Source of the DNA: Bacteroidetes bacterium HLUCCA01
Lineage (GTDB): Bacteria > Bacteroidota > Rhodothermia > Balneolales > HLUCCA01
Assembly (NCBI GenBank): GCA_001314545.1
Contig: LIHN01000005.1
Span: 62,001 to 126,000 of the forward strand
Direction: 5' to 3'
Length of the DNA: 64,000 nt
The first letter of the stretch is position 1. The number at the start of each line of letters is the position of its first letter. Positions 4,336 to 49,160 of the stretch are shown here, piece after piece. The notes beneath the pieces are model-generated. The model ran no database searches and was not told where the DNA came from. It was given only the letters and a program-made list of their open reading frames with translations. A program made the position numbers and the translations under genes.

Positions 4336-4445
4336 CGATGGGGATCTGACGGCCAGGGAGGAGGACTTCGTGACCCGCCTCAGCATACGATGGGGACCTG
4401 ACGGCCGGGGAAGAGGACTTCGTGACCCGCCTTATCATACGATGG
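4336..4445. repeat. Two-copy 52-bp intergenic tandem repeat
   Basis: Two copies of a 52-bp unit start with CGATGGGGA at 4336 and 4388, and the same CGATGG word recurs at 4440, where a third copy would begin. The units contain the shared words CTGACGGCC and GAGGACTTCGTGACCCGCCT and differ at a few positions. The array lies between the start of the ATP-grasp gene and the end of pepA, both on the minus strand. Function unknown. Confidence 0.85.
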
Positions 4446-4465
4446 TGATGGTTGCCCCGGCCGGT

Positions 4466-6007: not shown

Positions 6008-6070
6008 AAGTTATGTTTTCTGGCAGTTTCAAACTGCGTTGGTGTAAAAGGGCACTATGGGCAGCGCCTG

Positions 6071-6106
6071 TTCACAAAATGTGAACATGAAATCACGAAA
6101 TGTGAA
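6071..6106. promoter_or_regulatory. Tandem 15-bp operator-like sites upstream of pepA
   Basis: TTCACAAAATGTGAA at 6071-6085 is a symmetric TCACA-N3-TGTGA site, and ATCACGAAATGTGAA at 6092-6106 is a near copy. Their centres are 21 bp apart, two turns of the helix, as expected for two dimers bound to the same face. They lie upstream of pepA on the minus strand and downstream of the esterase-gene end. The binding protein is unknown. Confidence 0.5.
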
Positions 6107-6203
6107 CGGTTGCCTGCCCGGCGTGTGAAATTTCGATATAAAAGAGCATCAGCGGCTGGCAGCGCAGATGATGCACATACGATGTCGGTCAGCTAGGTCG
6201 GGC

Positions 6204-7067: not shown

Positions 7068-7129
7068 CGGAACTCCTTGTGCTGGAATTACCTGTTGGCA
7101 GTGGTTTTCCGGGATACAAATTCCGTATC

Positions 7130-7159
7130 TCCGGACGTATCCGATAAAATACGTCCGGA
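7130..7159. terminator. Perfect 10-bp hairpin between deaD and the esterase gene
   Basis: TCCGGACGTA at 7130-7139 pairs perfectly with TACGTCCGGA at 7150-7159 across a 10-base loop. It lies about 60 bp past the deaD stop and about 60 bp before the esterase start, both on the minus strand. No T-run follows, so it may be a terminator, an mRNA 3'-end stabiliser or an operator. Confidence 0.45.
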
Positions 7160-7219
7160 ACCGGAGTCTGGTACAGTCAAATTACACGTGTTGGTAACGC
7201 AGACCAGAAAGTGCTTCGT

Positions 7220-9049
7220 TTACTTGAAACGAGCTTTGCCGGAGCGCGCAAAGCCGCCCTTGCCCTTGCCTGCACCGCCTTTCCCGAAGGAAGAGCTTCC
7301 TTTACCTTTGCGGTCGTACCCGCCTTCTTTGTCGGGGCCGGACCCGCCACGGCGACCACCGCCGCTGAAATCGCCCCTGCCACGACCACCTTCGCCGCCA
7401 CGGCCGCCATCGCCGCCGCTGAAACCACCTCTGCCACGTCCACCACCATCACCACCGCCGCGGTTCGAGGATGGAGGTGCGATGCTTACTTCCACTTTTT
7501 TACCTTTCACATTGGCACGATGCAGGGCATCAATGACTTTATTGGCCACGCCGCCTTCCACATCCACAAAGGATTCAAACTTGAGAATGTTGATATGTCC
7601 GATTTCGCCGGATGAAATACCGGCCTCACCGGCAATAGCACCAACCAGATCGCCCACCCGAACATTGTCGTTCCGTCCCACGCTGATTTTCAGGGTCACT
7701 TTGCCCGAATCGTTGAAGGTGCCGCCGGATACCGGAGCTTTTTCCTCCTTCGGCTCGGCGCCCACACGCAGTTTCATCAGCGCAGCGGCCACCTCAATCG
7801 GAGAGAAATCCGCCTGCTCTTCCAGGAAGGCTTCAAGCTCTTCAATAAACGGCTTAAGCCCGCCTTTTTGGAGTTCAACGGTGATATCCTTCATCTGATG
7901 AGCCACGCGCGACTTAGTTACTTCCTCCACGCTGGGCATGGGGAGCACCTCAAGTTTCTGCTTGATCTGATTTTCAATGAATTTAAGTGCACGTGTGCGG
8001 TTCGGGGCACTGAACGTAATGGAGGTACCGGTTTTACCGGCCCTTCCCGTACGACCAATACGGTGCACGTAGTATTCCGGATCGGTGGGGAGTTCATAGT
8101 TGAACACCACATCCACATCGTCCACATCAATACCCCGGGCAGCCACATCGGTAGCTACGAGCAGGTCCAGCGAGCCGGACCGGAACGCCCGCATTACTTT
8201 ATCGCGCTGAGGTTGGTTCAGGTCGCCGTTGAGCACATCGCAGGCATACCCGCGCATCTGCAGGTCCTGCATGAGTTGCTCGGTGGCCCGCTTCGTGTTG
8301 CAAAACACCATCCCCAGCTTAAAATTATTCACATCCATCAGCCGGGCAATAGCCTCGGTACGCACCGAGTCGCGGATCTGAACCACGTACTGCTTGATAT
8401 CGGGGGCGGTAATGGCCTTTCGTTCGATGGTTACACTGGCCGGATCCTTCATGAATTCCTGCATCACCTTCCGGATGAATGGCGGGAAGGTGGCCGAAAA
8501 CATGACGGTCTGGATATCGTGATCAACATGCTTGAGCAGGGCTTCCATATCTTCGCGGAAACCCATATTGAGCATTTCATCGGCCTCGTCAAAGACCAGC
8601 ATTTTCAGGTGATCCAGTTTCAGGGTGCCTCGCTGGAGGTGGTCGAGCGTGCGGCCCGGAGTACCGACCAGGATCTGGGCACCGCGTTGAAGGGTGGTTA
8701 TCTGACGGGAAATGGGCTGGCCACCGTACACCGGTACGATGCTCAGTCCCGGGATAAATTGGCCCATTTTCAGCAGTTCACCGGTGACCTGGATGGCCAG
8801 TTCACGGGTAGGACACTGAATAATACCCTGGATTTCGCGCAGGGAGGTGTCAATGGTTTCCAGCAGCGGAATGCCAAAGGCAGCAGTTTTGCCGGTACCG
8901 GTCTGGGCTTGTCCGGCCAGGTCTCTGCCTGCCATAACCACCGGAATACATTCGGCCTGAATTGGGGTTGGGGCTTCGAAGCCCATGGAAGAGAGGGCGT
9001 TGTTCAGCGGTTCACTGAGCCCGAGTTCCGAGAAAGAAGTGATCTTCAT
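7220..9049 (-). CDS. deaD: DEAD-box RNA helicase with DbpA-like domain and RGG tail
   Basis: A 609-residue ATP-dependent RNA helicase, probably assisting ribosome assembly and RNA unfolding in the cold. It has the Q motif, motif I AQTGTGKT, PTRELA, DEAD (VFDEADEML), SAT (MFSATFPP), and motif VI HRIGRTGRAG in the first 360 residues. A DbpA-type RNA-binding domain follows at about 478-555 (TLKISVGRNDNVRVGDLVGA). The last 50 residues are rich in Gly, Arg, Ser and Phe (RGG-like), suiting RNA binding or condensate formation. The start is ATG at 9047-9049, 12 bp from a perfect 14-bp palindrome. The symbol reflects closeness to DeaD/CsdA. Confidence 0.92.
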   Translation of the reverse strand: MKITSFSELGLSEPLNNALSSMGFEAPTPIQAECIPVVMAGRDLAGQAQTGTGKTAAFGIPLLETIDTSLREIQGIIQCPTRELAIQVTGELLKMGQFIPGLSIVPVYGGQPISRQITTLQRGAQILVGTPGRTLDHLQRGTLKLDHLKMLVFDEADEMLNMGFREDMEALLKHVDHDIQTVMFSATFPPFIRKVMQEFMKDPASVTIERKAITAPDIKQYVVQIRDSVRTEAIARLMDVNNFKLGMVFCNTKRATEQLMQDLQMRGYACDVLNGDLNQPQRDKVMRAFRSGSLDLLVATDVAARGIDVDDVDVVFNYELPTDPEYYVHRIGRTGRAGKTGTSITFSAPNRTRALKFIENQIKQKLEVLPMPSVEEVTKSRVAHQMKDITVELQKGGLKPFIEELEAFLEEQADFSPIEVAAALMKLRVGAEPKEEKAPVSGGTFNDSGKVTLKISVGRNDNVRVGDLVGAIAGEAGISSGEIGHINILKFESFVDVEGGVANKVIDALHRANVKGKKVEVSIAPPSSNRGGGDGGGRGRGGFSGGDGGRGGEGGRGRGDFSGGGRRGGSGPDKEGGYDRKGKGSSSFGKGGAGKGKGGFARSGKARFK

Positions 9050-9409
9050 AGATATAATTGTGGCATATATATGCCGTAAGAGAATTTTGGTTAATCGATT
9101 ACTTGCACCGCGTGGACTTTCTGAAGTGCCGTTTCGTATCGTGTCATGAACCGTGAGAGATGATCAGCAAGTAATGCAACCAATTTGCCAGCGGGATAAA
9201 ACGAGAGAGAGGTGCGTTGAATCAGCGCGTAAGATACTAACTTTATTTGACAATTGAGCTATGCCCTGCGGAACACACCGCGCGAAGCCCGTTTATGCTT
9301 CAGCGTAACCCTCCCCCGGGCAGCCGTTGATTCCAACCCGACCGCCGCCGCTGTGAAAATACTCCATTCGGAGCATTGGCATTACCGAATTTGTTCACGT
9401 AATTAGGCT
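9050..9409. other. 360-bp divergent spacer between deaD and the response regulator
   Basis: No gene seen. Next to deaD lies the perfect palindrome GGCATATATATGCC (9062-9075). The region should hold the promoters of both flanking genes; a long 5' leader for deaD is possible, as in cold-induced helicase genes. I see no clear riboswitch. Confidence 0.6.
9062..9075. promoter_or_regulatory. Perfect 14-bp palindrome upstream of deaD
   Basis: GGCATATATATGCC is its own reverse complement and ends 12 bp before the deaD start codon. As DNA it could be an operator; as RNA it would form a 5-bp stem with an ATAT loop where a ribosome-binding site would sit. No purine-rich Shine-Dalgarno sequence is visible there. 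Confidence 0.4.
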
Positions 9410-10081
9410 ATGGATAAAAAAATCACCATCGGAATTGCCGAGGATCAGTCGGCCCTGCGCAGACGCCTCATCGAACATTTTCGTTTCTTTGACGAGGTGG
9501 ATGTAACCATTGCCTGCGAAAGCGGAGACGCCCTGCTGGAACGACTGCCCGCCCTGCCGGAGTCCCGTTTTCCGGTTGTTATCCTCATGGACATCGAGAT
9601 GCCCGGTTCCAACGGTATTGAAACAACGCATCGGGTTAAGGAGCACTATCCGCAGACCGATATTATCATGTTTACGGTCTTTGAGGATGACGACCGGATT
9701 TTCGATGCTATCCAGGCCGGGGCTTCCGGCTATCTGCTCAAGGATGAACCGGTTGACGTGATTGTACAGGCCATGAAAGAGCTCCGTGAGGGCGGGGCGC
9801 CTATGTCAGCCCTTATCGCCCGGAAAATGCTGGGTATTATGCGCAGGGCACAGCTGGAACGGCAGCGACCTGATGACGCGGAACTGCCGTTTAATTTATC
9901 GGCCCGGGAGCTGGAGATTATCCAGCAGATTGTTCAGGGCAAAACGAATGCTGAAATCGGTGAAGCGATGTTTCTGAGTCCGTTTACGGTAAAAACACAT
10001 ATCAAGAATATCTACCGCAAAATGCATGTAGGCTCCCGTGCCGAGGCTGCTTCGCTGGCGTACAAGCGGAATCTGGTTTAG
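9410..10081 (+). CDS. NarL/FixJ-family response regulator
   Basis: A 223-residue two-component response regulator. The receiver domain (1-125) has the acidic pair E11-D12, the phospho-acceptor D61 in VVILMDIEMPGSNG, the conserved Thr in IIMFTVFEDD and Lys in GYLLKDEP. A linker leads to a LuxR-type helix-turn-helix at about 160-215 (LSARELEIIQQIVQGKTNAEIG, then SPFTVKTHIKNIYRKM). It probably binds DNA as a phosphorylated dimer. A TPR-type histidine kinase gene lies about 1 kb away on the other strand and is the nearest candidate partner. ATG 9410 gives the normal family N-terminus. Confidence 0.92.
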   Translation: MDKKITIGIAEDQSALRRRLIEHFRFFDEVDVTIACESGDALLERLPALPESRFPVVILMDIEMPGSNGIETTHRVKEHYPQTDIIMFTVFEDDDRIFDAIQAGASGYLLKDEPVDVIVQAMKELREGGAPMSALIARKMLGIMRRAQLERQRPDDAELPFNLSARELEIIQQIVQGKTNAEIGEAMFLSPFTVKTHIKNIYRKMHVGSRAEAASLAYKRNLV

Positions 10082-10201
10082 TTCGCAGGAACGCCGCCGA
10101 TTGTCAGTAATGAGGTTGATAGAATCCGCCCGATGTGCTTATCCATCGCATTTATGCGCGAGGCGGAATACTGCCGGTTACAACCGATGGTGAACTGATT
10201 T

Positions 10202-10834
10202 TCAGCCCGGAAGCTTCTTGACAAACCAGTTTTCGCGGTGATCAGCTTCAAAGCCCATTTCCGAAAGGTACTGGCGGTGCTCGGACCGGTCGGCGTAGGC
10301 ACGTATCTCCTGAATGCCTTTATCGGTAAACCACGATGCCTTTTTCATGAACAGAAACCGCCCAATCTTGAAATCCCGGTACTGGGGAATGGCATAGTCG
10401 ATGTCAACGGTTAAAACCCCCTCGCCCGAACGGTGCCCCACCAAAAGTCCGGCAGGGACCATATTGCTTAGTACAAATAGCGTAATACTGTCTGCCTCCG
10501 GTGTTTTCTTGAATCCGGACTGGGTTTTACGCATGTCCTTTTCATAGAAAGCAAGAAAGTGCTGCAGGTATTTATCATCTACGGCTACCTCCAGCAGGGA
10601 AAAAAAAGTTTTGCTACGGTACATCTGCACCAGGTAATACAGATTAATCAGCACGATGAAGCCATTCATCCCGGCAACCGGTATAGAGCCGATCAGATAC
10701 CCGTATAGGGAGAACGTGGCCGCTCCGATCATATTTACCAGTCGCAGGGTGAGTACCTTGCTCATCATCAGGGATACAGCCACCAGGACCGAAGCGGTGT
10801 AGCCTATGATTTCATAAAAAAAATTGGTTTCCAT
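10202..10834 (-). CDS. YgjV-like membrane domain fused to an acetyltransferase-like domain
   Basis: A 210-residue protein. Residues 1-75 form about three membrane segments (EIIGYTASVLVAVSLMMSKV, LVNMIGAATFSLYGYLIGSIP, NGFIVLINLYYLVQMYRSK) of the YgjV inner-membrane family type. Residues 80-210 look like a GNAT-type acetyltransferase fold, with strands FVLSNMVPAGLLVG and TVDIDYAIPQYRDFKIGRFLF and the C-terminal YLSEMGFEADH that typically ends such folds. The canonical acetyl-CoA loop Q/RxxGxG/A is degenerate (YRDFKIGRF). Function is unknown. Confidence 0.65.
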   Translation of the reverse strand: METNFFYEIIGYTASVLVAVSLMMSKVLTLRLVNMIGAATFSLYGYLIGSIPVAGMNGFIVLINLYYLVQMYRSKTFFSLLEVAVDDKYLQHFLAFYEKDMRKTQSGFKKTPEADSITLFVLSNMVPAGLLVGHRSGEGVLTVDIDYAIPQYRDFKIGRFLFMKKASWFTDKGIQEIRAYADRSEHRQYLSEMGFEADHRENWFVKKLPG

Positions 10835-11018
10835 AGGTTATAATATCGTTGTGTGGATGTCCATGCCTGCCGGAATCTGCCCCCGGTCAGCGCGGATCTT
10901 CACAGTTGCGCCGCCGGACGGACCGCACCGATGCTTTTTGTCCCGCAGCCGGCGCGGAGCCTCATGCTCCCATGTGCAGCGCTGTGTGCCGCACTGAAGA
11001 ATCGCTTATGCGGAACCA

Positions 11019-13136
11019 TCAGCCCGGTCGACCAATGACAGGCCGTATTGGAAAGGTACAGGTAAAAACGGAACCTTTATCCTTTTCGCTTTCCAGTTGT
11101 ATCTCTCCACCCAGTTTTTTTACCAAAAGTTTAACCACATGCAATCCGAGCCCTGACGATGGTTCATTGTCGGTAGGACGAGCGGAGAGTTTGCTGAACA
11201 TTTCAAAGGCCTGAGCCTTATCAGCCTCACTGAACCCTTGTCCCTGATCACCTACTTCCAGGAACCAATAGCCGGCCTCGCCATACCCTGTACGCACACG
11301 CACACGGCTGTCAGGATAGCTGTATTTGATTGCGTTGGAAACCAGGTTTTCAACGATGCGTGCGTAATACTCCGGGTGGGTTAGGGCCTCCAGCGGCTGC
11401 AGCTCTGTCTGCAGGCTGATTTTTTTCTGTAAAGCAGCCGGAAGGTACGAATCTGTTGCAATCTGCGTGGCTTCTTCGATGTCAACACTCTCCATCTTCC
11501 CGCTGATGTCAACATTCTGAATGCTCTTGATGTCCAGCAAACCGTCAATCATGAGCCGTAGTTTTTCCGAGGAATGTTCGGCAATGGCGTAAATGTCATT
11601 GAAATCCGTATCGGTAGTGGCATGCAGATCCCGGATCATGTCCAGGGAGGAAACCAGGGCAGACAAAGGGTTTCTCAGATCATGGACAATCATATTGACC
11701 AGGTTGTCACGATACTCATTGAATTCCTGCAGGGTGGCGTTTTTCCGGCGTATCGTGGAGTTTTGCCGAATAATCATTAGCAGCAGAAGGGCCACGACCA
11801 CGGCAAAGGCAACAAGTCCAAGCAGGATGTTTTTGCGATTACGTTCCTGCTGTTCTTTCAGTGCCAGCTGCTCGCGCAGCAAATCGTTTTCGGTGTTGAT
11901 CAGGTCCAGGGCAAATTCGGAGCGCACCTGTTCCACGGCCTGCTGATTTTGTGCGGTGTTGAGTGAATCTGAAAGTATACCGAATGCTTTCTGATAATCA
12001 AGCGCGGTGCGAAAATCACCCTTCTGTTCGTAGTATGCTGCCAGATAGCGGTTGCTTCCCACCTGAAGCTCCAGATTCCCAAGTCGTTCCGACCATTCCA
12101 GCGCCCTGTTGGCATAGACCGGAAGTTGCGTGTAGTCTTCGGTTTCCAGATACCATCTGCCCAGTCCATAATTATGAAACATAATACCGGGAGACAGATT
12201 AATTTCCCGGCTCAATCCGAGTCCTTCCTGAAGGTAGGTGAGGGCCTCATCGTAATCTCCTGCATCCATGAGACTGGAGGCCAGATTGTAATAATTGCGG
12301 ATTAAACCAACTGTGTTTCCGCTTTCCTGCTGATAGCGTACAGCCGACCTCAGGCTGTCTATGGCGGCCTGAGCTTGCCCCGTCTGACCGTATACATTGG
12401 CCATGTTGTTAAGGTTTTGGGCCAGACCGGCAGGAATGTTGTTGCGGGTGTTGATTTCATAGGAGCGGGATAGTTCCTCCAGTGCCTCCCGGTACTGGCC
12501 TGCCCGCGTGAGTATCAGTCCCAGGTTATTGTGTATAACGGCGATATTCCGCTGACTGATACCGGCCGCATCGGCCATGCGTAGTGCTTCCTGGTTGATG
12601 GCTACCGCCTCATCAAAACGGTAGCTTTTTTCCATCATGTTGGCCAGCGTTGTCAAGGCCAAAAAATGAGGCTGGTCTCCCGGGTTTTCCCTTCGGTAGC
12701 GCTCGACTATAGGTTCGGTCAGCTGTACGGCCTCTTCCACGCGGGATAATTCCACCATAATAGTGGCCGTTCGCAGGGTGTGGATATCCCGGGTCCGGAC
12801 CTGCACCTCCGGATGGTTGCGTGCAGGGGCATTTTCCATCAGATCCAGGGCTTCAGCGTAGCGACCCGTAGACAGTAATATGAAGGAGCGTTCAATCACG
12901 GCACGCAGCTGCTGGTCGGGATTACCGGCAGCGGATACCGAGTCAAGCAGGGCAACCGAGACGGAGTCGGCCATCCGAAGCCGGCCCTGATTAAGCAAAT
13001 CAGAGAGCAGGTCGACCTGTGACTTCAGGTACAACTCCATCGGCGAGTCTGGCTCAGACGGATCCGGTGCCTGCGAGGGCGCGCCGTTGCAGGAGATTAC
13101 AAGGAAAGCAAGTACAACGGCGATATACTGGATCAT
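11019..13136 (-). CDS. TPR-repeat lipoprotein sensor histidine kinase
   Basis: A 705-residue sensor kinase. I start at 13136 because MIQYIAVVLAFLVISCNG is a typical lipoprotein signal with the lipidated Cys in VISC; the frame extends further upstream without such a signal. The periplasmic part (to about 420) is built of TPR repeats (for example AVIHNNLGLILTRAGQYREALEELS). A membrane segment lies near 440-458 and is followed by a HisKA domain with the phospho-histidine in VHDLRNPLSAL (near 482). The ATPase domain has N-box NLVSNAIKYS, G1 DQGQGFS and G2 SSGLGLHVVKLL. The ligand is unknown. The nearby NarL-type regulator at 9410 is a possible partner. Confidence 0.9.
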   Translation of the reverse strand: MIQYIAVVLAFLVISCNGAPSQAPDPSEPDSPMELYLKSQVDLLSDLLNQGRLRMADSVSVALLDSVSAAGNPDQQLRAVIERSFILLSTGRYAEALDLMENAPARNHPEVQVRTRDIHTLRTATIMVELSRVEEAVQLTEPIVERYRRENPGDQPHFLALTTLANMMEKSYRFDEAVAINQEALRMADAAGISQRNIAVIHNNLGLILTRAGQYREALEELSRSYEINTRNNIPAGLAQNLNNMANVYGQTGQAQAAIDSLRSAVRYQQESGNTVGLIRNYYNLASSLMDAGDYDEALTYLQEGLGLSREINLSPGIMFHNYGLGRWYLETEDYTQLPVYANRALEWSERLGNLELQVGSNRYLAAYYEQKGDFRTALDYQKAFGILSDSLNTAQNQQAVEQVRSEFALDLINTENDLLREQLALKEQQERNRKNILLGLVAFAVVVALLLLMIIRQNSTIRRKNATLQEFNEYRDNLVNMIVHDLRNPLSALVSSLDMIRDLHATTDTDFNDIYAIAEHSSEKLRLMIDGLLDIKSIQNVDISGKMESVDIEEATQIATDSYLPAALQKKISLQTELQPLEALTHPEYYARIVENLVSNAIKYSYPDSRVRVRTGYGEAGYWFLEVGDQGQGFSEADKAQAFEMFSKLSARPTDNEPSSGLGLHVVKLLVKKLGGEIQLESEKDKGSVFTCTFPIRPVIGRPG

Positions 13137-13337
13137 CGGTTGTTTCGGGTTGTGGGTTCCGGCGTTAAGCTGCAGGGCGTTTATGAGTTCAAAAGTGACT
13201 TTATTAAAAAAAGTTAATAAATAAGATACGTGAACCAAACCTTAATTACGCGTTTTTTTAACGAAAAACGGGAGTTTTTGAAATTTATTTAGATTCTTTA
13301 TGAATAAACAAAATCCGGGGCGCCACAGTATTCTAAT

Positions 13338-13424: not shown

Positions 13425-13883
13425 ATGCAACTTCTGTCAACAGGCTCACAATACGTGCTGACTGCGTTAATCCTGATTGGTCGCCGACCGGAAGGAGAGA
13501 CCATATCGGCCACCGAACTGGCTGCCATGCTGAACAGCCCGACGGCATATTTATCGCAAATGCTGGCCAAATTGCAGGAGCCGGGCATCATCGGGTCGCG
13601 CCGGGGGGCCAACGGCGGGGTCTACATCGCCAAACCGCTCAAAAATATCCGCCTCATTGATATAATTATCACATTGGAGGGGGATGCGTTTTTCAGGCGA
13701 TGCTTTCTGGGAATAGACGGTTGCGGCCATATTGAACCCTGTCCTTTTCACGACCAGTGGACCAGCCATCGTTCAGAAATTGGCAAGTGGTTGTCATCAA
13801 CGACGCTTTACGACCTGTGCAATGACGTTAACGACAACTGGATCACGGAGCGACTTCGATTTAACCGGGCCGAAGTGCCCTGA
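13425..13883 (+). CDS. Rrf2-family transcriptional regulator, probable Fe-S sensor
   Basis: A 152-residue winged-helix regulator of the Rrf2 family (IscR, NsrR, RsrR relatives). The DNA-binding part reads SATELAAMLNSPTAYLSQMLAKLQEPGIIGSRRGANGGVYIAKP. Three cysteines follow in the order and spacing typical of cluster-binding members (C-x7-C-x6-C in FRRCFLGIDGCGHIEPCPFH), so a labile Fe-S cluster sensing oxygen, NO or redox state is likely. It directly precedes the cbb3 oxidase assembly and structural genes and probably controls them. An inverted repeat upstream is a candidate own operator. Confidence 0.9.
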   Translation: MQLLSTGSQYVLTALILIGRRPEGETISATELAAMLNSPTAYLSQMLAKLQEPGIIGSRRGANGGVYIAKPLKNIRLIDIIITLEGDAFFRRCFLGIDGCGHIEPCPFHDQWTSHRSEIGKWLSSTTLYDLCNDVNDNWITERLRFNRAEVP

Positions 13884-38683: not shown

Positions 38684-40858
38684 ATGAGTAAGCACGAGTG
38701 GGAAAAAGCAGCGAAGAAAGCCCTGAAGGGCAACGATATTTCGTCACTGGAGCGAGAAGTGGATGGCATCCGTATCAAGCCCTTATACACCTCCGATGAC
38801 CTCCCTGAAGGGGTCCGGCGGCAGGCTGATTCGCCCGATGCTGCCGAAAAAGACGAAAACTGGCCGGGAATCTACCCCTACACCCGGGGTCCTTACCCCA
38901 CTATGTACACCCAGCGAGCCTGGACCATTCGGCAGTATGCCGGTTTTTCTACTGCAGAGGAAAGCAACGCCTTTTACCGCAAAGCATTGCAGGCCGGGCA
39001 AAAAGGTCTGAGTGTTGCCTTTGATCTGGCCACACACCGGGGTTACGACTCCGATCATCCCCGGGTTACCGGTGACGTGGGAAAAGCCGGTGTTGCCATC
39101 GATTCCGTTGAAGACATGAAAATTCTTTTCAACGATATTCCGTTAAACGAAATGTCGGTGTCGATGACCATGAACGGTGCCGTATTGCCGGTAATGGCCT
39201 GTTACATTGTAGCTGCAGAGGAGCAGGGGGTATCGCCGGACCAGCTCAGCGGCACCATTCAGAACGACATCCTCAAAGAGTTCATGGTCCGTAATACCTA
39301 CATTTATCCGCCGGCCCCGTCCATGCGCATCGTTTCAGACATCATCGACTATACCAGTCGTGAAATGCCCCGGTTCAACTCCATATCCATTAGCGGGTAT
39401 CACATGCAGGAAGCCGGGGCGGGTGCACCGCTTGAACTGGCCTTCACGCTGGCCGACGGACTTGAATACGTCCGGGCTGCGGTCCGGCGGGGCCTGGATG
39501 TAGATGCCTTCGCGCCGCGACTATCCTTTTTCTTCGGCATCGGGATGAATTTCCTAACCGAGATTGCCAAGCTGCGTGCAGCCCGTAAGCTCTGGGCTGA
39601 GCTCATCCGCGCGGAATTTAAACCCAAAAGTGAGAAGTCGCTCATGCTCCGCACCCACTGCCAGACCAGCGGATGGAGCCTTACCGCGCAGGATCCGCTC
39701 AACAACGTTGTCCGTACCACGGTAGAAGCCATGGCGGCCGTCCTGGGCGGAACCCAAAGTCTGCACACGAACTCCTACGATGAAGCCGTTTCCCTGCCTA
39801 CGGATACGGCGGCGCGGATTGCCCGCAATACCCAGCTTATCCTGCAGGAAGAGACCGATATTACCTACACGGCCGATCCGCTGGGCGGCTCTTATGCTAT
39901 CGAGGCGCTCACCGCGGAACTTGTTGAACGGGCCAGAACCATCATTGATGAAGTGGAATCTCTGGGGGGGATGACCAAGGCGCTGGAGTCGGGTATGCCG
40001 AAACTGCGCATCGAAGAAGCGGCGGCCCAAAAACAGGCCGGCATCGACAGCGGGAGCATCACCATCGTAGGGGTGAACAGGTATCAGGTCCATGATGAGC
40101 CGGCCATCGATGTTCTGGATATCGACAATACCAGGGTGCGCGAATCGCAGGTTCGTCGACTGGAGGCCGTCAGAGCCGCCCGGGATGAGGACGCGGTCCG
40201 GCGCTCGCTTCAGGCGCTGACCGAGGCGGCCGGCGAGGCGGATACAACGCCGGAACGCAATCTGCTGCACCTGGCCGTGCAGGCTGCACGGGTGCGCGCA
40301 ACGGTGGGTGAAATCAGCGATGCCCTGGAGGCCGTCTGGGGTCGACATCGTGCATCCAGTCAGACCGTAAGCGGGGTTTATGAGCGGATGTACGTCAAAA
40401 AAGATGAATATGCTCAGATAAAGGCCAGGGTCGAGGAGTTTGCCACAGCACGGGGTCGCCGTCCGCGTATGCTGGTGGTCAAAATGGGGCAGGACGGGCA
40501 CGATCGGGGCGCCAGGGTGGTGGCCACGGCATTTGCAGATATGGGTTTCGATGTGGACCTTGGTCCGCTTTTTTCAACTCCGGCCGAGGCTGCCAAGCAG
40601 GCCGTTGAGAACGATGTGCACCTGGTTGGGGTGTCGAGTCTGGCCGCAGGGCATAAAACCCTGATACCGGAACTGATTCAGGAGCTGCGGGCCCAGGGTG
40701 CCGATGATATTCTGGTGGTAGCCGGAGGGGTTATCCCTGAGCAGGACTATCCTTTTTTGAAGGATGCGGGCGTTGCTGAAATCTTCGGTCCCGGAACGAA
40801 CATTCCGGCGGCGGCACTTCGCGTGCTGGAGGATGTGCGTAACCGGTTTTCCTCGTAA
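38684..40858 (+). CDS. Methylmalonyl-CoA mutase, single-chain catalytic subunit
   Basis: A 724-residue B12-dependent mutase that interconverts methylmalonyl-CoA and succinyl-CoA. The TIM-barrel N-terminus has the substrate-binding segments [18 protein letters not shown] and [38 protein letters not shown] is the family signature. The C-terminal B12 domain (about 585-720) has [14 protein letters not shown], with the cobalt-ligand His, and GGVIPEQDY. No small subunit gene is adjacent, as fits the homodimeric or MutB-like type. Its GTPase chaperone MeaB lies at 48189. Confidence 0.96.
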
Positions 40859-41052: not shown

Positions 41053-41083
41053 ATTTAGACCTTAACTTGGAACAAGTCTAAAT
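41053..41083. promoter_or_regulatory. Perfect inverted repeat ATTTAGAC-N15-GTCTAAAT
   Basis: ATTTAGAC (41053-41060) and GTCTAAAT (41076-41083) are perfect complements with centres 23 bp apart. The loop holds TAACTTGG (41063-41070), one mismatch from the -7 element TAnnTTTG, so the arms could be two half-sites flanking a promoter. It lies 84 bp before the receptor start. A metal- or redox-responsive repressor is plausible but not proven. Confidence 0.45.
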
Positions 41084-41087
41084 AAAA

Positions 41088-41117
41088 AGAAGAGCCCGTC
41101 AGCCGTCTTGCTCTTCT
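41088..41117 (+). promoter_or_regulatory. Leader hairpin before the receptor gene
   Basis: AGAAGAGC (41088-41095) pairs with GCTCTTCT (41110-41117) across a 14-base loop, with no following T-run. It lies in the probable 5' leader of the TonB-receptor gene and may affect translation or mRNA decay. Confidence 0.35.
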
Positions 41118-41166
41118 CACATCCACGACGTAAACCGTCTGCAAGCCTGCCACCCACACAGGATTC

Positions 41167-43965
41167 ATGTCGAATAGTCTGCGATTTACCTTACTATTGC
41201 TGTCTATGTTTGTTGTACTGCCTGCGATGCTCCACGCCCAGGCAGATGCCCACAATGAACTGCTGTATGACGCCGATCAGCCCGGGGTTTTCACCCTGAC
41301 CGGCTTTGTGCGCACCCCTGACGGACAGCCCCTGTCGTACGCTACGGTCCGCACCCAGAACGACCGCTTCACCATCACCGACGAAGACGGCTACTACGAA
41401 ATCCGCCTCCCGCTCAACCAGGTACGTACCATGATCTGGATTGAAGTGCGCTTCGTGGGCATGCAGACCTACCGCGAAGACCTCCTCCTGGAAATCGGGG
41501 CCACATCCTTCCGCAGAGACGTCATACTGCGCAACTCCGATTTATTCCTGCGGGAAGTCACCGTCACCGCGCGGCAATCGGAAGACAACGTCTCCAACTC
41601 CACCTACGTCATCGACCGCATCGCCGTTGAGCAGGCTCAGGCCTACACCCTGGGCGACCTCCTCCAGCTGATTCCGGGCCAGTCGGTGAGCAATCCCCTG
41701 CTGCAGGGAGCCCAATCTATCAATTTCCGGGCGGCATTCCCGGCCAGCGGCTCCACCCAGTTCACCAACAACAATGCCTTCGGCATCGGTATCTTCGTGA
41801 ATGACGCCAACCTGAACAACAACGCCAACATGCAGGGGTATAACCCCGTGACCAACAACGCATTCCGTTCGTTCGGCTCTACCCGCATCAGTACCAACAG
41901 CTTCCAGACCGGCGATGCACCCGGCGGCGGATTCGACCTTCGTGAGCTGCCCGTGGGCGATATTGAGCGGGTGGAGGTAGTGCAGGGTATTGCCTCTGCC
42001 CGGTATGGCGATATCCTGGAGGGAGGGATTTTCATCGAAACCGTTGCCGGCAGGTCGCCCGTCAACCTGAATGTACGGCGCGCAGCAGGCAATACAAATT
42101 TCGGCATCAACAGGGGATTTCAGCTGCATCCCCGCCATGCGGTGAATCTGAGCTTCGATTACCTGTACAGCAACGCCGACCCGCGCGACCGGGTGAAGTC
42201 GTACAATCGCGTGACCGGTTCCCTTCTATGGACATCCTTCTACGGGGCGGAACGGCAGATCCGAAACACCCTTTCGGTCTCCTACCGCACCAACCTGGAC
42301 GATTTCCGCATTGATCCGGACTTCGGCACCGAACAACGGGTTTATTATCAGAACACCGGTCTCTCCGTCTCCAACCGCATCACGGTACAGTCAGCCAGCC
42401 TGCTGTTCAACAACATAACCCTGTCGGTTTCCGGCAACGTTGGCAGAAGTACATCCCTGCTCAATCAGTTTGTGAATCCCGGGGTGCTGCCCGTCACCGG
42501 TGTAACCGAGGAGGGGGTATCGGAAGGGTCCTACCACCCATCCAGCTACCGGACCGAGCGACAGATTCTGGGCGAGCCGGTTTCCATGAACGGTCGCATT
42601 CAATTTAACCGCGCTTTTGTAACCGGCGGATGGAAACACGCGGTTTCCTACGGCGTGAACGGCAGTTTCGATGCCAACTACGGCGACGGGCGGGTCTTTG
42701 ATCCCTACCGACCCATTCGTTTTGGCGGGGCTACCCTCTCAGAGCGACCGGTTTCCTACCGTGAACTCAGTCCGGAGTCGTTGCAGGGCGGTGCCTACCT
42801 GGAAAACACGGTATCCGGCAAAATCGCCGGTCGCGACCTGGTGACCTCCCTCGGCGTACGCGGGGATCTGCAAAACGGATACGCCAACCTGTCGCCCCGC
42901 TTCAATACCCGCTTTCACCTCAGCGAAGCCTTCTCCCTGACCGGCGGATACGGTATTCAGGTCAAAGCCCCGGGACTCATCCACCTGTTTCCCGGTCCCG
43001 ACTACGAGGACTACACCCTGCTCAACAGCTATAACGGCAATGTCAGCGAAAGCATCTACCTGACCTACACACGGATTTCAACCAACGTGGCTGATGAGCT
43101 CAAACCCATGAAATCCTATCGTATGGAAGCCGGTTTTCAGTGGATTTTGCCACAGATGCGACTGAATGCCACGTTTTACAGGAATATTTCGGACGATGGG
43201 ATCACGGTGCTGCAGGAACCGGCCTTCCTGGATCTGCCCGTCTACCAGATTGTCGACCGTCCGCCGGGCCAGACGCCCGTAATCGAAAATACCGGGGAGG
43301 TTAACCGGGTTATTTACTCCCAGGGTCGGGTGGCCAACATGCTCTACTCGCGCAACTGGGGGGTAGAGCTGACCCTGAGCACCCCTCGTATTGAAGCGAT
43401 ACAGACCTCGTTCAATCTGAGTGCGTCTTTTTCCAACAGCTATTATTTCAACCGGGGGGGTAATTTCAACTTTGCCGGTCGCGACCCCCAGCCCAACGAG
43501 GAAATCTGGTTCGGTATCTATCCGCCCAACAAGAGCAGAAGCGGCCGGGCCAATGCCATGCTCACCTCCATGCACCACATCTCCGATCTCGGACTGCTGA
43601 TTACCCTGCGCTCGGAGGCGTTCTTGTACAACTACAGCGAGTCGCTGGCCAACTCCAACCGCGCCATCGCCTACGTGAACAACCAGCTCGAAATTGTCCC
43701 CATCAGTGAAGACGAAATCAATGACCCCCGCTTCGACGTGCTTGACCGTAACGCGGTGGAGGGCACCTTCCGGCGGGAGCCCCGATTCGTCTATTTCAAC
43801 TTTCACGCCAACGTGAGTAAAAACATCAGCCACACGGTCCGACTCTCCTTCTTTGCCAACAACTTCCTGAACCTGCGTCCGGAAGTCATCAATGCAGAGG
43901 GGGATGTCATCCGGGTGCTGAACCAGGAGCCCTACTTCGGTATGGAACTCCGCCTCACCATCTAA
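41167..43965 (+). CDS. TonB-dependent receptor with carboxypeptidase-regulatory-like domain
   Basis: A 932-residue outer-membrane receptor. A signal peptide (about 1-28, ending MLHA-QA) is followed by a CarboxypepD_reg-like domain (LTGFVRTPDGQPLSYATVRTQ), a plug domain (NVSNSTYVIDRIAVEQAQ, VEVVQGIASARYGDILEGGI with the conserved YGD pattern), and a 22-strand-type barrel ending in EPYFGMELRLTI. No TonB box is certain. Such receptors import large or scarce ligands using energy from TonB. It heads a four-gene run with DUF4876, DUF6850 and a di-haem peroxidase. Confidence 0.92.
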   Translation: MSNSLRFTLLLLSMFVVLPAMLHAQADAHNELLYDADQPGVFTLTGFVRTPDGQPLSYATVRTQNDRFTITDEDGYYEIRLPLNQVRTMIWIEVRFVGMQTYREDLLLEIGATSFRRDVILRNSDLFLREVTVTARQSEDNVSNSTYVIDRIAVEQAQAYTLGDLLQLIPGQSVSNPLLQGAQSINFRAAFPASGSTQFTNNNAFGIGIFVNDANLNNNANMQGYNPVTNNAFRSFGSTRISTNSFQTGDAPGGGFDLRELPVGDIERVEVVQGIASARYGDILEGGIFIETVAGRSPVNLNVRRAAGNTNFGINRGFQLHPRHAVNLSFDYLYSNADPRDRVKSYNRVTGSLLWTSFYGAERQIRNTLSVSYRTNLDDFRIDPDFGTEQRVYYQNTGLSVSNRITVQSASLLFNNITLSVSGNVGRSTSLLNQFVNPGVLPVTGVTEEGVSEGSYHPSSYRTERQILGEPVSMNGRIQFNRAFVTGGWKHAVSYGVNGSFDANYGDGRVFDPYRPIRFGGATLSERPVSYRELSPESLQGGAYLENTVSGKIAGRDLVTSLGVRGDLQNGYANLSPRFNTRFHLSEAFSLTGGYGIQVKAPGLIHLFPGPDYEDYTLLNSYNGNVSESIYLTYTRISTNVADELKPMKSYRMEAGFQWILPQMRLNATFYRNISDDGITVLQEPAFLDLPVYQIVDRPPGQTPVIENTGEVNRVIYSQGRVANMLYSRNWGVELTLSTPRIEAIQTSFNLSASFSNSYYFNRGGNFNFAGRDPQPNEEIWFGIYPPNKSRSGRANAMLTSMHHISDLGLLITLRSEAFLYNYSESLANSNRAIAYVNNQLEIVPISEDEINDPRFDVLDRNAVEGTFRREPRFVYFNFHANVSKNISHTVRLSFFANNFLNLRPEVINAEGDVIRVLNQEPYFGMELRLTI

Positions 43966-43990
43966 CCACACACCACACACCACAGGAATC

Positions 43991-45412
43991 ATGATCAATA
44001 GAATACTAGCCGTTATTATCAGTTTCGGGTTTCTTGCCGTAGCCTGCGACAATCCCTCCGGGGTTGATCCGGTAGACCTTACCCTCTCGGTTACCTTCGA
44101 TGAGAGCTACGGGAATCTGCCGGCTGCCGATGTACAGGTCACCATGACCAATGTTACCTCCCAGCAGGCCTTCAATGGCAGCACCGACACCGAAGGACAG
44201 GTGCTTTTTGAAGACCTTCCTTCCGGAAACTATGACATTCAGGCCCTGCTGACCCTTGACGCGGGCACCGTGCAATCCATCACTGGGGTATTACCCTCAA
44301 CCGATGAGATTACCTTCAACGCCTCGGTAGCCAACGTGCTGATTAATCCAGGCACCCAGGTCCCGGCCATCGAACTGGTTTCCGGTCGACTCGGGGACCT
44401 GGTTTTCAAGCAAATCTACTTCGCCGGATCGGACCGGGTGGAGGGAGCCCTTTTCCGCGACCAGTTTCTGGAAATCTACAACAACTCCAATGAGACCATT
44501 TATGTAGACGGCCTGTATATCATGGGGGTATTCGGCAACGCCAGCACGAGTCGTACTGAATATGTCACGGAAACCGGCCAGTTCGACTGGAACCAGTCGA
44601 TCGGCATGCCCACCGATATTGACGCCAACGCCGACTACCTGCACGCCAAATGGATCTATCAGATTCCCGGAACCGGTGAGGAGTATCCGCTTGAGCCCGG
44701 AGAAAGTATCGTAGTAGCCCAGACAGCGCTCAACCATCAGGCGCCGTACACCGATAACGGCGGAAATACGGTAACGGTTGGCGATCCTTCACTGACCGTA
44801 GACCTGAGCGATGCCGATTTTGAAGGGTATGTAGGCGACCAGTTCCCGACACCGCTGGCCTCCGATGTGGATAATCCATCGGTTCCCAACCTGCGACCCA
44901 TCTATATTTTCGGTCGTGACATGATCCTGGACAACCTGGGTAGGGATGGTTTTGTACTGTTCCGTTCCGACGAGGTAGACGGTGCCGACCTGCCGGCGTA
45001 TCCCTCGCCCATTTCCCGTGAAATCCGTGATAACACCCGAATGTATCCGCAGATCCCCATTGAGTGGGTAATTGATGCGGTTGAAACCCAGCCTTCTCCG
45101 GCCAATCAGATTCCGCGGAAGCTGCAGAACGTGCTGGATGCCGGATATACCTATGTTCCGGGCGGCGGCTATTCTTCCAACTCTGTCATCCGTCTGGAAG
45201 CCCAGCGCTTTGGCGACCGTGTGGTACTCAAAGACACCAACAACTCCACCGAAGATTTCACCTTCCTGGAGCGTGCCGCACCCCGGGTGGATGCGCCGCA
45301 ATCGCCCAACACTACGGCACGGTATCTGTTCCGTACCAACCGGGTAGTGCTGGAAGATCCGTTTCTGGATAACCTGGAATCGCAGTGGGCCCGAAGTACC
45401 GGCCGACGTTAA
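43991..45412 (+). CDS. DUF4876-type surface lipoprotein
   Basis: A 473-residue protein with a lipoprotein signal; the lipidation Cys follows FLAVA (AVAC near 16-19). An N-terminal carboxypeptidase-regulatory-like Ig repeat (PAADVQVTMTNVTSQQAFNG, DTEGQVLFEDLPSGNYDI) precedes a domain with QFLEIYNNSNETIYVDGLYI, which resembles lamin-tail-like folds and matches the DUF4876 pattern. The role is unknown, but members partner TonB receptors and may present ligand at the surface. Gap to the receptor is 25 bases; its stop overlaps the DUF6850 start by one base. Confidence 0.82.
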   Translation: MINRILAVIISFGFLAVACDNPSGVDPVDLTLSVTFDESYGNLPAADVQVTMTNVTSQQAFNGSTDTEGQVLFEDLPSGNYDIQALLTLDAGTVQSITGVLPSTDEITFNASVANVLINPGTQVPAIELVSGRLGDLVFKQIYFAGSDRVEGALFRDQFLEIYNNSNETIYVDGLYIMGVFGNASTSRTEYVTETGQFDWNQSIGMPTDIDANADYLHAKWIYQIPGTGEEYPLEPGESIVVAQTALNHQAPYTDNGGNTVTVGDPSLTVDLSDADFEGYVGDQFPTPLASDVDNPSVPNLRPIYIFGRDMILDNLGRDGFVLFRSDEVDGADLPAYPSPISREIRDNTRMYPQIPIEWVIDAVETQPSPANQIPRKLQNVLDAGYTYVPGGGYSSNSVIRLEAQRFGDRVVLKDTNNSTEDFTFLERAAPRVDAPQSPNTTARYLFRTNRVVLEDPFLDNLESQWARSTGRR

Positions 45413-46941
45413 TGCCCTTGCTTTTCAACATACTATTCCTCGGAATTACCCTGTCCCTCGTCTTCACGTTTGAAGCCGGGGGACAGTTTCTTTCAGGCCA
45501 TGACGGGCTGATGCGTACGGCTGAATCGGTGCATAATACCTCGGTCTCCCGGTTGCCGGTGCGGGTATTGTTGCTGGACGGGCGGCTGGGCCGCAGCAGC
45601 ATCGGATCGCACTATGAAAACGGTGATCTGCGCAGCCTGCAGGACCCGTCACGTGCATTGCACACCAAACTGGAGTCGTACGGACTCACCCAATTCCGCA
45701 AGCTTCGTCTGGAGGGGACCTTCCGGTTTGTTCAGGAGCAGGAAGACCAGATTGGCTGGCGACTCAGTCGCGATGCGCTCAATCAGCCCTATTATTATGC
45801 CAATATTCGTCCCGGCGACTGGGACAACGACCGCTATGCGGTGCATGTTAACGGGGGAAGCCGGCTGTGGGAAGATCGCCTGCTGCTGGCCTTCGGGATA
45901 GACTACAACGTAGAGCGCCTCGCCCGCTACAACGATCCCCGGCCCTTGATTAATTACCATAATTTGTTTCTGAAGGTTCAGGCCGGGCTGCAGCTCGGAA
46001 ATCATGTACTTGCCCTTTATGCCGGTTCCGGTGACGCTAAAGAAACCGGCATTGTGCGCAACTACAATCGCTCCAACGACAGCTTTGGCAGGACGGAGTA
46101 CAACCTGATCACCGTCACAGGTATGGGCAGCTACAGTCTGCTGCGCCGAAGTCAGTACGAACGTCCGCTCACCCTTCAGCAGGCGGGTCTGACCTGGATT
46201 CGTGCCGGTGAACGCTCAACGCTGAGTACGGAAGTGGTGTATTCCCGCAGGGAGTCATCCTTTTCCCGCCGGGGCAGCTCGGGCAGCGGTGCCATCTTTG
46301 AGCCGATGGGCACCTATATTGAAAACGAAATCCGGTCGGATATCTTTGCTTCCCGCACCGTGGGCGATGTGATCCTGCAGCTGGTTTCCGAAACGGTATT
46401 TACCGACGGATACGATGAAAACACCCAGTTTCTGGGCGCCAATTATTTCAACAGGGGATTCCGTCAGGAACTGCATCTGCTTATGCACAACGCCGACGAA
46501 ACGCTTTCCCTTCAGCTGAGCGGCCATGGCACCGACCGTTCCATCAACGACCGTAACGCATCCCATGCTATGGGCTGGACGCGGGCGGGCGGTTCCGCCG
46601 ATGTACAGCTTACACGCAGTTTCTCCGCCTGGCGGATGGCCCTCATTCCGGGTGCCGGCTATACGGCCGCACTGCAACATAATTTGACCATTCCGGAGTC
46701 GCGACAGAATCTGTATTCTGAGTATATTGCCTATCCGATGTATGCGTTGAACACCAGCGATGTACTCTTCCTTCGGGGGGGACTTCAGGTGCAGCGCTAC
46801 ATGGCCGATTTCTCAGCGGCATTGCTCCTGCAATTTGAACACCAGCGTATAACCCGCGAAGGTCCGGTACATCCGGACGCGGCATTCCACCCCGGTACCA
46901 TCCGGAACGGAGTAACGGTAACGCTTCAATTTTTTCATTGA
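45412..46941 (+). CDS. DUF6850-type outer-membrane beta-barrel protein
   Basis: A 509-residue protein with a signal-like start (MPLLFNILFLGITLSLVFTF) and many amphipathic strands, for example LRLEGTFRFVQEQED and LINYHNLFLKVQAGLQLG. It ends in NGVTVTLQFFH with aromatic residues typical of barrels. The RLARYNDPRPLINYHN region and gene context fit DUF6850. Start 45412 shares one base with the previous stop (TAATG), which shows translational coupling. Possibly the export or pore partner of the lipoprotein; function unknown. Confidence 0.75.
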   Translation: MPLLFNILFLGITLSLVFTFEAGGQFLSGHDGLMRTAESVHNTSVSRLPVRVLLLDGRLGRSSIGSHYENGDLRSLQDPSRALHTKLESYGLTQFRKLRLEGTFRFVQEQEDQIGWRLSRDALNQPYYYANIRPGDWDNDRYAVHVNGGSRLWEDRLLLAFGIDYNVERLARYNDPRPLINYHNLFLKVQAGLQLGNHVLALYAGSGDAKETGIVRNYNRSNDSFGRTEYNLITVTGMGSYSLLRRSQYERPLTLQQAGLTWIRAGERSTLSTEVVYSRRESSFSRRGSSGSGAIFEPMGTYIENEIRSDIFASRTVGDVILQLVSETVFTDGYDENTQFLGANYFNRGFRQELHLLMHNADETLSLQLSGHGTDRSINDRNASHAMGWTRAGGSADVQLTRSFSAWRMALIPGAGYTAALQHNLTIPESRQNLYSEYIAYPMYALNTSDVLFLRGGLQVQRYMADFSAALLLQFEHQRITREGPVHPDAAFHPGTIRNGVTVTLQFFH

Positions 46942-48101
46942 TGTCCAAAACGGTTTTTCTTTCCGGCATCCTATCCTCTTTGCTGGCATTCATCGCTTTT
47001 TTTGCCGCTTCAGCTCCTGCAGGCTATCAGCCGGAGGACTACAGTTACGATGAGCTCCGCAACATATACACGCAGGATTCCTCGCTGTGGCCCGCTCCTC
47101 ATGTGGATGAGGGCATTGACTGGAAAGAGCTGCAGGCGATGCCGGAGAATCCGTTCCGCAACCAGGATAGTCTGGAAGCCCGAACTGAGCTGGGTAAAAT
47201 ACTGTTTTTTGATCCGCGCCTTTCCGCCTCCAACCAGATCAGTTGCTCATCGTGCCATGAGCCGGAACGCAACTGGCAGGATGGCCGGATGGCAGCGCTG
47301 GGGCACAACCATCGGGTCGGGAAGCGTAACACGCCGTCGGTGCTCAATACCTGGGGTGTTGAACCCGTATTCTGGGACGGTCGTGCGGCCACCCTCGAAG
47401 AACTTTCCCTGCACCCCATTGCCGATCCCCTGGAAATGAACATGGATCTGGAGTTTCTCCCGGACAAGCTCCGGGAAATCGAGGGGTATCCGGAGCTGTT
47501 CGAGGCTGCCTACAACGACGATCAGGTTACCCTCGAGCGAATCGCCTCCGCATTGGCGCAGTTTCAGCGGACCGTAGTGAGCAGGTCCTCCGACTTCGAC
47601 CGCTTTATGCGCGGAAACCCCACGGCCATGTCGGATGAGGCCCTGCACGGCATGCATCTGTTCCGTACCAAGGCCCGGTGTATCAATTGCCATCACGGGG
47701 CTTTTTTCAGTGACGGTGAGTTTCATAACCTGGGACTGCACTTTTATGGTCGGGATCGCGAAGATCTGGGACGCTACGATGTAACCGGCGATCCGGCCGA
47801 CATGGGTCGGTTTCGCACGCCGTTGCTGCGCGATGTGGCCTTCACGGCCCCGTACACCCATAACGGACTGGTACCCAGTCTGGAGGGCATGGTCAGTATG
47901 TACGATGCCGGCATGGCCCGGCCCCGTCCGCGCCCGGGACTGGAAGACGATCCCCATTTTCCGGTGACTTCCGAAATCCTGGTCCCCCTCGAGCTTACCG
48001 ATGAAGAGAAAGAAGCGATAGTATCCTTTCTGCATGCCATTTCTGAACGACCGTTCCGGCTGCGACGTCCGGAGCTTCCGGGGCGGGATCAATTCAACTG
48101 A
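46941..48101 (+). CDS. Di-haem cytochrome c peroxidase, MauG-like
   Basis: A 386-residue periplasmic protein with a signal peptide (MSKTVFLSGILSSLLAFIAF) and two c-haem motifs, CSSCH (near 101-105) and CINCH (near 248-252), in the order of bacterial cytochrome c peroxidases. RNTPSVLNTWGVEPVFWDGRAATLEEL and GRFRTPLLRDVAFTAPYTHNG are family signatures. It may remove peroxide or, as in MauG, oxidise another molecule. It starts one base into the previous stop (TGATG), so it belongs to the receptor operon. Confidence 0.93.
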   Translation: MSKTVFLSGILSSLLAFIAFFAASAPAGYQPEDYSYDELRNIYTQDSSLWPAPHVDEGIDWKELQAMPENPFRNQDSLEARTELGKILFFDPRLSASNQISCSSCHEPERNWQDGRMAALGHNHRVGKRNTPSVLNTWGVEPVFWDGRAATLEELSLHPIADPLEMNMDLEFLPDKLREIEGYPELFEAAYNDDQVTLERIASALAQFQRTVVSRSSDFDRFMRGNPTAMSDEALHGMHLFRTKARCINCHHGAFFSDGEFHNLGLHFYGRDREDLGRYDVTGDPADMGRFRTPLLRDVAFTAPYTHNGLVPSLEGMVSMYDAGMARPRPRPGLEDDPHFPVTSEILVPLELTDEEKEAIVSFLHAISERPFRLRRPELPGRDQFN

Positions 48102-48188: not shown

Positions 48189-49160
48189 ATGGCTGTATCC
48201 ATACAGGAATTGACCTCCGGTAACCGTCGCGCCCTGAGTAAAGCCATCACCCTCATCGAGAGCACCCGCGGTGAAGACCGCCAGCCGGCCCAGCACCTGC
48301 TGCAGGCTGCCATGCCTCATACCGGAAAATCCTGGCGCATTGGGGTCAGCGGGGTTCCGGGGGTAGGGAAGAGCACCTTCATTGAATCGCTGGGCATGCT
48401 CCTGATAGCCCGGGGACATAAGGTTGCGGTGCTGGCCGTTGATCCCAGTTCGCCGTTTTCGGGGGGCAGTATTCTGGGCGACAAAACCCGTATGGAAAAG
48501 CTCGTAGCTCAGCCGGATGCCTTCATCCGCCCGTCGCCCACCGCCGGAAGTCTGGGCGGCGTCACCCAGCGCACCCGCGAATCCATTCTGCTGTGCGAAG
48601 CCGCCGGATTTGATGTCATTCTGGTGGAGACGGTAGGGGTAGGGCAGAGCGAGTACGATGTGGCCTCCATGACCGATCTTTTTCTGCTGCTCATGCTTCC
48701 CGGCGCCGGCGATGCCCTGCAGGGTATCAAGCGCGGTATTCTGGAGCTGGCTGACGTGCTGGTGGTCAACAAATGTGATGGCGACAACCGCGATCGCGCC
48801 GAGGCCGCCCGCAGCGAGATTCGCCAGGGACTTCATTATCTGCGCCCACAGGACGACAAAGCCCCGGCCGATGTGCTGTTGTGCAGTTCGCTCACCAACG
48901 AAGGGGTGGAGGCTGTCTGGGATGAGGTAAGCACGCGACTGGAAGCCCTGGCCCAAAGCAAGCGACTGGAGTCGAACAGGCGCAAACAGAACCTGAACTG
49001 GGTCAAAAGCCTCATCGAGCAGCAGGTACTGCACCGTTTCTGGAACGACGGCAATGTGCAGGCCGACTACATGAAAATGATATCGGAGTTGCGTTCCGGT
49101 GCCGTTACCCCCATCCAGGCCGTAGAACAGCTGCTGGAAAACGTACACCTGGTGCGCTGA
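48189..49160 (+). CDS. meaB: Methylmalonyl-CoA mutase-associated GTPase MeaB
   Basis: A 323-residue G3E-type GTPase that protects and reloads methylmalonyl-CoA mutase with B12. It has Walker A GVPGVGKS (55-62), the switch region DPSSPFSGGSILGDKTRM, a second signature SLGGVTQRTRESILLCEAAG, and GTP-specificity NKCD in VVNKCDGD, plus an AQPDAFIRPSPTAGSLGG stretch. Length is normal. It should serve the mutase at 38684. The two genes are not adjacent, unlike in many genomes. Confidence 0.95.
   Translation: MAVSIQELTSGNRRALSKAITLIESTRGEDRQPAQHLLQAAMPHTGKSWRIGVSGVPGVGKSTFIESLGMLLIARGHKVAVLAVDPSSPFSGGSILGDKTRMEKLVAQPDAFIRPSPTAGSLGGVTQRTRESILLCEAAGFDVILVETVGVGQSEYDVASMTDLFLLLMLPGAGDALQGIKRGILELADVLVVNKCDGDNRDRAEAARSEIRQGLHYLRPQDDKAPADVLLCSSLTNEGVEAVWDEVSTRLEALAQSKRLESNRRKQNLNWVKSLIEQQVLHRFWNDGNVQADYMKMISELRSGAVTPIQAVEQLLENVHLVR

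Follow-up and report, generated by a model that had tools for sequence, protein, structure and literature searches.

Gene content of the locus

Four genes on the + strand at 41167-48101 of the window, which is the whole 64 kb stretch of DNA analysed, encode a TonB-dependent receptor, a DUF4876 lipoprotein, a DUF6850 barrel and a MauG-type di-haem protein. The initial annotation had placed these four genes at 41053-48101, and the open reading frames agree, with Pfam families all above cut-off. The part of that span from 41053 to the receptor start is an upstream region that holds no gene; a regulatory box lies inside it.

The receptor gene (41167-43965) encodes 932 aa with Plug (PF07715, 3.1e-9, 37.7 bits against a cut-off of 23.9) and barrel domains (PF00593, 6.6e-10, 39.8 against 27 bits). 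Its N-terminal carboxypeptidase-regulatory-like domain (PF13620) also passes the cut-off (35.2 against 32.3 bits). No solved relative of the receptor was found by sequence search at E<=0.001. The lipoprotein gene (43991-45412) follows after a 25-bp spacer and encodes 473 aa of the DUF4876 family (PF16215, 3.9e-30, 105.7 bits against a cut-off of 27.9), with a lipobox Cys19 that is invariant in 45 aligned sequences; the protein is presumed to be a surface ligand catcher. A carboxypeptidase-regulatory-like domain had been proposed for both proteins, which is borne out in part: it holds for the receptor, and in the lipoprotein the domain stays under the cut-off (23.0 bits), with several Ig/prealbumin-like models competing.

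The DUF6850 outer-membrane beta-barrel (45412-46941, 509 aa) matched its family at 5.6e-54 (PF21012, 184.4 bits against a cut-off of 27) and was modelled with a barrel fold. The MauG/MbnH-type di-haem c enzyme (46941-48101, 386 aa) contains an N-terminal signal segment and matched PF03150 (CCP_MauG) at 4.7e-51. The junctions of the last three genes are TAATG (45410-45414) and TGATG (46939-46943), each with one base in common, and the gap and the stop/start overlaps at 45412 and 46941, as first described, were read directly in the sequence. No inner-membrane transporter was found within the four-gene cassette. Upstream, at 41064-41084 on the + strand and 103 bp before the receptor start, we predicted a Fur-like (iron-type) palindromic operator, AACTTGGAACAAGTCTAAATA.

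Through structure modelling, the DUF4876 lipoprotein (pLDDT 87) gave 4q1z as top fold match (E 6.5e-23), which is the solved BT_1938 of B. thetaiotaomicron from a DUF4876 operon induced by iron limitation (BT1933-39). The DUF6850 model (pLDDT 91.8) comprises about 18 strands and matched generic outer-membrane barrels only, with TM-score <=0.45 by query length. The distances of DUF6850 follow those of the receptor closely (r 0.96) and are consistent with a barrel that may be a physical partner of the receptor.

Conservation of the gene order

We searched 84,980 species genomes with nine MauG proteins and analysed the best 80 loci, further relatives being present. The order receptor-DUF4876-DUF6850-MauG was exact in 67 of these 80, distributed in Cyclobacteriaceae, Chitinophagaceae, Sphingobacteriaceae, Flavobacteriaceae, Weeksellaceae and Hymenobacteraceae and in the window's own Balneolales kin. 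Three more loci were partial matches, with truncated contigs or an unrecognised receptor. The other ten comprised one at a contig edge (L124), one with the core genes after MauG, not before it (L103), and eight placed elsewhere, some of which, on inspection, stood near SusC/SusD genes or another TonB receptor. The initial annotation had called for a search across many Bacteroidota genomes and had made its reading depend on conservation outside close relatives; the order spans several Bacteroidota families besides Balneolales.

DUF6850 was present in 48 of 393 sampled genomes of the phylum, and about 40 of its neighbourhoods were taken and their genes labelled with local HMMs. Receptor, DUF4876 and DUF6850 form a constant core, in this order in nearly all DUF6850 loci of the sample. 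The fourth position is held by MauG in nine of the sampled loci and otherwise by Ycf48/HEAT proteins with T9SS tails, ABC genes, CobW and others. Many MauG-less loci from several families of the phylum (L067 to L078) carry a protein of ~740 aa as fourth gene; L067 was tested, and its fourth gene encodes a Ycf48-like BNR protein that ends in a T9SS tail, with the gene of a HEAT-repeat protein after it.

In the receptor tree, built by a quick method with midpoint root, all MauG+ operons fall in one supported part together with seven MauG- ones, and the remaining 25 MauG- operons make up the other part. The window's receptor falls among the MauG+ receptors. Distance correlations between MauG and the other three proteins were r 0.66-0.75, and those of the three among themselves 0.84-0.96.

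The cassette sits between mutB (38684-40858) and meaB (48189-49160) and so breaks up the usual vicinity of these two genes. In one congener (G363) mutB stands directly beside meaB and the entire cassette is absent; in another (G396) the cassette is present at the same place. A partnership of the cassette with mutB/meaB was rejected, because the former congener keeps the two genes without it. The gene order is far beyond chance, and the cassette is one unit.

Two other arrangements were observed. Three Myroides loci (L116, L129, L131) contain the DUF4876-DUF6850-MauG set twice, in tandem. In two Sphingobacterium MAGs (L125, L138) a MauG relative appears to share an operon with SusC, SusD, a Peptidase_Mx1 metallopeptidase and a clostripain-family peptidase, the families being tested in L138 and the layout being the same in L125; these operons suggest that MauG-type enzymes also serve other outer-membrane importers.

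Upstream palindrome and probable iron regulation

The palindromes TTAGA-N5-TCTAA and TATTT-N11-AAATA were prominent in the upstream regions of MauG+ operons and served as seeds for a palindromic model, which converged to the 21-bp TATTTAGAaTaAtTCTAAATA. Sites above the 99% shuffle level were found in 54 of 75 MauG+ operons against 3 of 32 MauG- operons, a contrast that is partly built in as the model was trained on the MauG+ set. When the window and its closest kin were left out of the training set, the site at 41064-41084 scored 15.2 bits, the best in the whole window, and 4 of 500 shuffled windows attained this score. The congener that shares the cassette (G396, locus L237) kept the box at the matching place (13.3 bits) despite a diverged spacer. 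The second-best iron-type box of the window (13286-13306, 14.7 bits) is flanked by the gene of an Rrf2-type regulator (13425-13883) and by a histidine-kinase-like gene. A simple 14-base pattern for the window box was uninformative; sigma-70-like promoters and terminators were no more frequent than in shuffles and are uninformative for this phylum.

Searching eight genomes for the exact pattern of the box proved too stringent, and three mismatches were then allowed. This gave 26 sites in Chryseobacterium G095 against 8 for the reversed pattern, and 10 in the window's own genome against 3. The genes behind these sites included HmuY, receptors, aconitase and ResB in Chryseobacterium G095 and HemA in F. 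tructae. Those of the window's own genome included a TonB receptor, SufB, an iron-type binding protein, an FbpC-like ATPase, a ZIP transporter and Rrf2. Unrelated, non-iron genes stand behind some of the sites. The strongest scored box of the own genome (G000:C5:24342-24362, 26.1 bits) is located between an MFS transporter and a Pfam-less protein, not an obvious iron pair. An operator common to known iron genes, as looked for in a Fur-type regulon, is predicted here by a sequence model. We take the palindrome as an iron box of Fur type, a predicted operator, and at sequence level the iron link of the locus is well supported.

Homologous operons were reported to respond to iron limitation: PG1019-22 of P. 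gingivalis went up 20.8-214.5-fold, and BT3631-33 and BT1933-39 of B. thetaiotaomicron 112-128-fold and 3.5-7.4-fold (PMC10434189). PG1019-22, BT1933-39 and BT3625-33, all induced by iron limitation, hold DUF4876 and a TonB receptor, with no MauG gene listed (PMC10434189). One P. gingivalis DUF4876 gene declines in haemin excess (PMC10470040). The ligand, first described as a metal chelate, haem-like or a peptide, can be narrowed: iron or an iron complex is most likely, because the palindrome is common to iron genes and homologous operons are induced by iron starvation.

The genome has another receptor-DUF4876-DUF6850 set, on contig C7 (L003, G000:C7:1048000-1064000, at 2911-11836), which lacks MauG. 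Its neighbours encode a CobW-type GTPase, an FAD protein and DUF3526 ABC-2 proteins, and its region contains several perfect TGCAACNNNGTTGCA palindromes, TGCAAC-N3-GTTGCA, which are unlike the iron-type box. Judged by gene content and box, this paralogue looks like a zinc-type sister system.

The di-haem enzyme

The fourth protein contains two CXXCH motifs and an inter-haem Trp145, each conserved in 84 of 84 sequences. Tyr321, likewise conserved in 84 of 84, aligned with Tyr294 of MauG (3l4m-type chains) and with a Tyr of MbnH. Bacterial di-haem peroxidases (CcpA) carry the axial Met of the high-potential haem at this site, where the enzyme has Tyr321 instead; a Met325 near Tyr321 is also nearly invariant, and the ligand assignment rests on alignment. 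The enzyme combines the MauG features of a Tyr294-type axial Tyr, an inter-haem Trp and two CXXCH, and 6e1c is the best solved relative of its C-terminal part. It scored 224.4 bits with the MauG model (TIGR03791, cut-off 443.85) and 196.9 bits with the MbnH model (TIGR04039, 4.6e-58, cut-off 362.85), and falls outside both families as defined by these cut-offs. Pfam and TIGRFAM profiles revealed no mau substrate genes among the four proteins.

MauG and MbnH act on a partner protein, one of whose side chains they oxidise. The enzyme carries by alignment the haem ligand Tyr of the MauG/MbnH type, unlike classical cytochrome c peroxidase, and therefore oxidation of a protein or of cargo appears more likely than simple peroxide defence. 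The initial annotation had described a MauG-like peroxidase that oxidises the ligand or protects it from peroxide; the di-haem, MauG-like character was upheld, and the ligand of a classical peroxidase was not found, with Tyr321 in its place.

We looked in the partner proteins for candidate target residues. Were DUF4876 the substrate, one would most simply expect a Trp, His, Met or Cys particular to MauG+ operons; none was found in it, nor any conserved Trp. Elsewhere the MauG-specific candidates were weak, namely Tyr151 and Tyr354 of DUF6850 and Tyr693 and Tyr836 of the receptor. A haem-copper oxidase was present in all nine MauG+ genomes tested and missing from three of five MauG- iron-type genomes; the association (Fisher p 0.027) is thin support, since the three oxidase-less genomes are of one family.

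Proposed function and alternative explanations

On balance, and with moderate confidence, we consider the cassette an iron-starvation importer of iron or an iron complex, with a MauG/MbnH-like enzyme that would oxidise either the cargo or a partner protein. A Fur-like repressor that responds to iron would bind the palindrome at 41064-41084 and release the operon when iron is scarce. The DUF4876 lipoprotein at the surface may then capture the iron ligand, the TonB receptor would import it, and the DUF6850 barrel would act as the regular outer-membrane partner of the receptor. In the periplasm the di-haem enzyme, with its MauG-type Tyr/His haem, would most likely use H2O2 or O2 to oxidise either a partner protein, at one of its side chains, or the imported ligand, so that iron comes free. 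The gene anatomy, order conservation, box and haem ligand position behind this proposal come from sequence, and the induction by iron starvation is published for homologues; the surface location, the ligand, the identity of the regulator and the substrate of the enzyme are what we infer. The earlier model of capture, import and oxidation survives as a conserved uptake module with surface-type lipoprotein, TonB receptor and periplasmic di-haem enzyme, with simple peroxide defence now the less likely role.

The oxidation step is the weakest of the mechanism, because DUF4876 lacks a MauG+-specific substrate residue and the Tyr candidates in DUF6850 and the receptor are weak. We also counted against the proposal that the published induction comes from operons without a listed MauG, that the box also occurs before non-iron genes, that the cassette has no inner-membrane transporter, that DUF4876 has no MauG+-specific Trp, His, Met or Cys, and that the co-variation of MauG with the other three proteins (r 0.66-0.75) is lower than theirs among themselves (0.84-0.96). 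A more specific form, a metal importer whose MauG-type enzyme creates an oxidised residue, needed for iron binding or release, in the receptor, the DUF6850 barrel, the lipoprotein or the cargo, is tentative only, with less than an even chance in our view.

The same iron importer could instead use the di-haem protein as a redox or peroxide helper like EfeB of EfeUOB, which would shift the redox state of iron or remove H2O2 and modify no protein. Haem peroxidases such as EfeB are known in iron-uptake operons, no clear MauG-specific substrate residue was found in the partner proteins, and among the tested genomes MauG occurred only where a haem-copper oxidase is present. However, the enzyme has Tyr as haem ligand, like MauG/MbnH, and not Met, like bacterial di-haem peroxidases, and EfeB is of a different family, the DyP type; we regard such a helper as rather unlikely.

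Uptake of copper or another metal, like MbnT-MbnP-MbnH or MopE-SACCP, with the MauG-like enzyme making a copper-binding kynurenine in a surface protein, appears improbable: none of the four proteins matched the MbnP family (TIGR04052), DUF4876 is without a conserved Trp, and the box is common to iron genes. What speaks for copper is the match of the enzyme with MbnH, in both profile and solved structure, the pairing of a surface protein with a di-haem enzyme in the copper-repressed MopE/CorA systems (PMC3621798), and the zinc-like paralogues, which suggest that the receptor family serves more than one metal. A chance or read-through arrangement of the four genes, with the MauG protein serving ordinary peroxide defence, could draw on the many unrelated genes that fill the fourth slot in MauG-less loci, so that the slot is replaceable. 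Yet the order kept over many families in the best relatives, the one-base gene overlaps and the empty site in the congener without all four genes already refute a chance neighbourhood, and we give this explanation hardly any credence.

Significance

How Bacteroidota capture iron is poorly understood, and no activity has been assigned to DUF4876 or DUF6850. Both are linked here to a single family of receptors, which within the same genome seems to serve iron (Fur-like box) or zinc (other boxes, CobW), and its aerobic branch appears to have a dedicated MauG-type enzyme. The literature that was searched gave nothing relevant on DUF6850, or on MauG with TonB and iron in Bacteroidetes, and we found no published description of a lipoprotein catcher, gated channel and second barrel combined with a MauG-kind enzyme; the MauG step is the novel part. 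If the enzyme modifies a partner protein, protein-derived cofactor chemistry would reach beyond copper and amine oxidation into iron import, as an iron counterpart of the MbnH/MbnP copper chemistry, widespread in aerobic Bacteroidota. The compact four-gene operon is testable in culturable Pedobacter or Chryseobacterium strains.

Comparison with known systems

The iron-starvation operons PG1019-22, BT1933-39 and BT3625-33 (PMC10434189) share the receptor and the DUF4876 lipoprotein with the window. They differ in that no MauG is listed for them, whereas the window has the exact receptor-DUF4876-DUF6850-MauG order.

The methanobactin system MbnT/MbnP/MbnH, MopE-SACCP and CorA-CorB likewise place a MauG-like di-haem enzyme beside a TonB receptor or a surface protein and are tied to metal starvation, and MbnH has the Tyr at the haem ligand position in common with the window enzyme. 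Unlike MbnT/MbnP/MbnH, the window is without an MbnP match, the partners are DUF4876 and DUF6850, and the control box is of the iron type. MauG of methylamine dehydrogenase (TTQ biosynthesis) belongs to the same di-haem family and shares the inter-haem Trp and the Tyr294-type axial position, but no methylamine dehydrogenase genes were seen at the window locus and the TIGR03791 score is far under the cut-off.

EfeUOB is an iron-starvation operon that includes the periplasmic haem peroxidase EfeB, of DyP type, and is not known to include an outer-membrane receptor. A periplasmic haem enzyme in an iron operon is the likeness with the window, which contains neither EfeU nor EfeO. In the BtuB-BtuG and SusC-SusD pairs a surface lipoprotein, presumably a lid or catcher, is encoded together with a TonB receptor too; the lipoprotein there is of another family, and the unit in the window adds a barrel and a di-haem enzyme.
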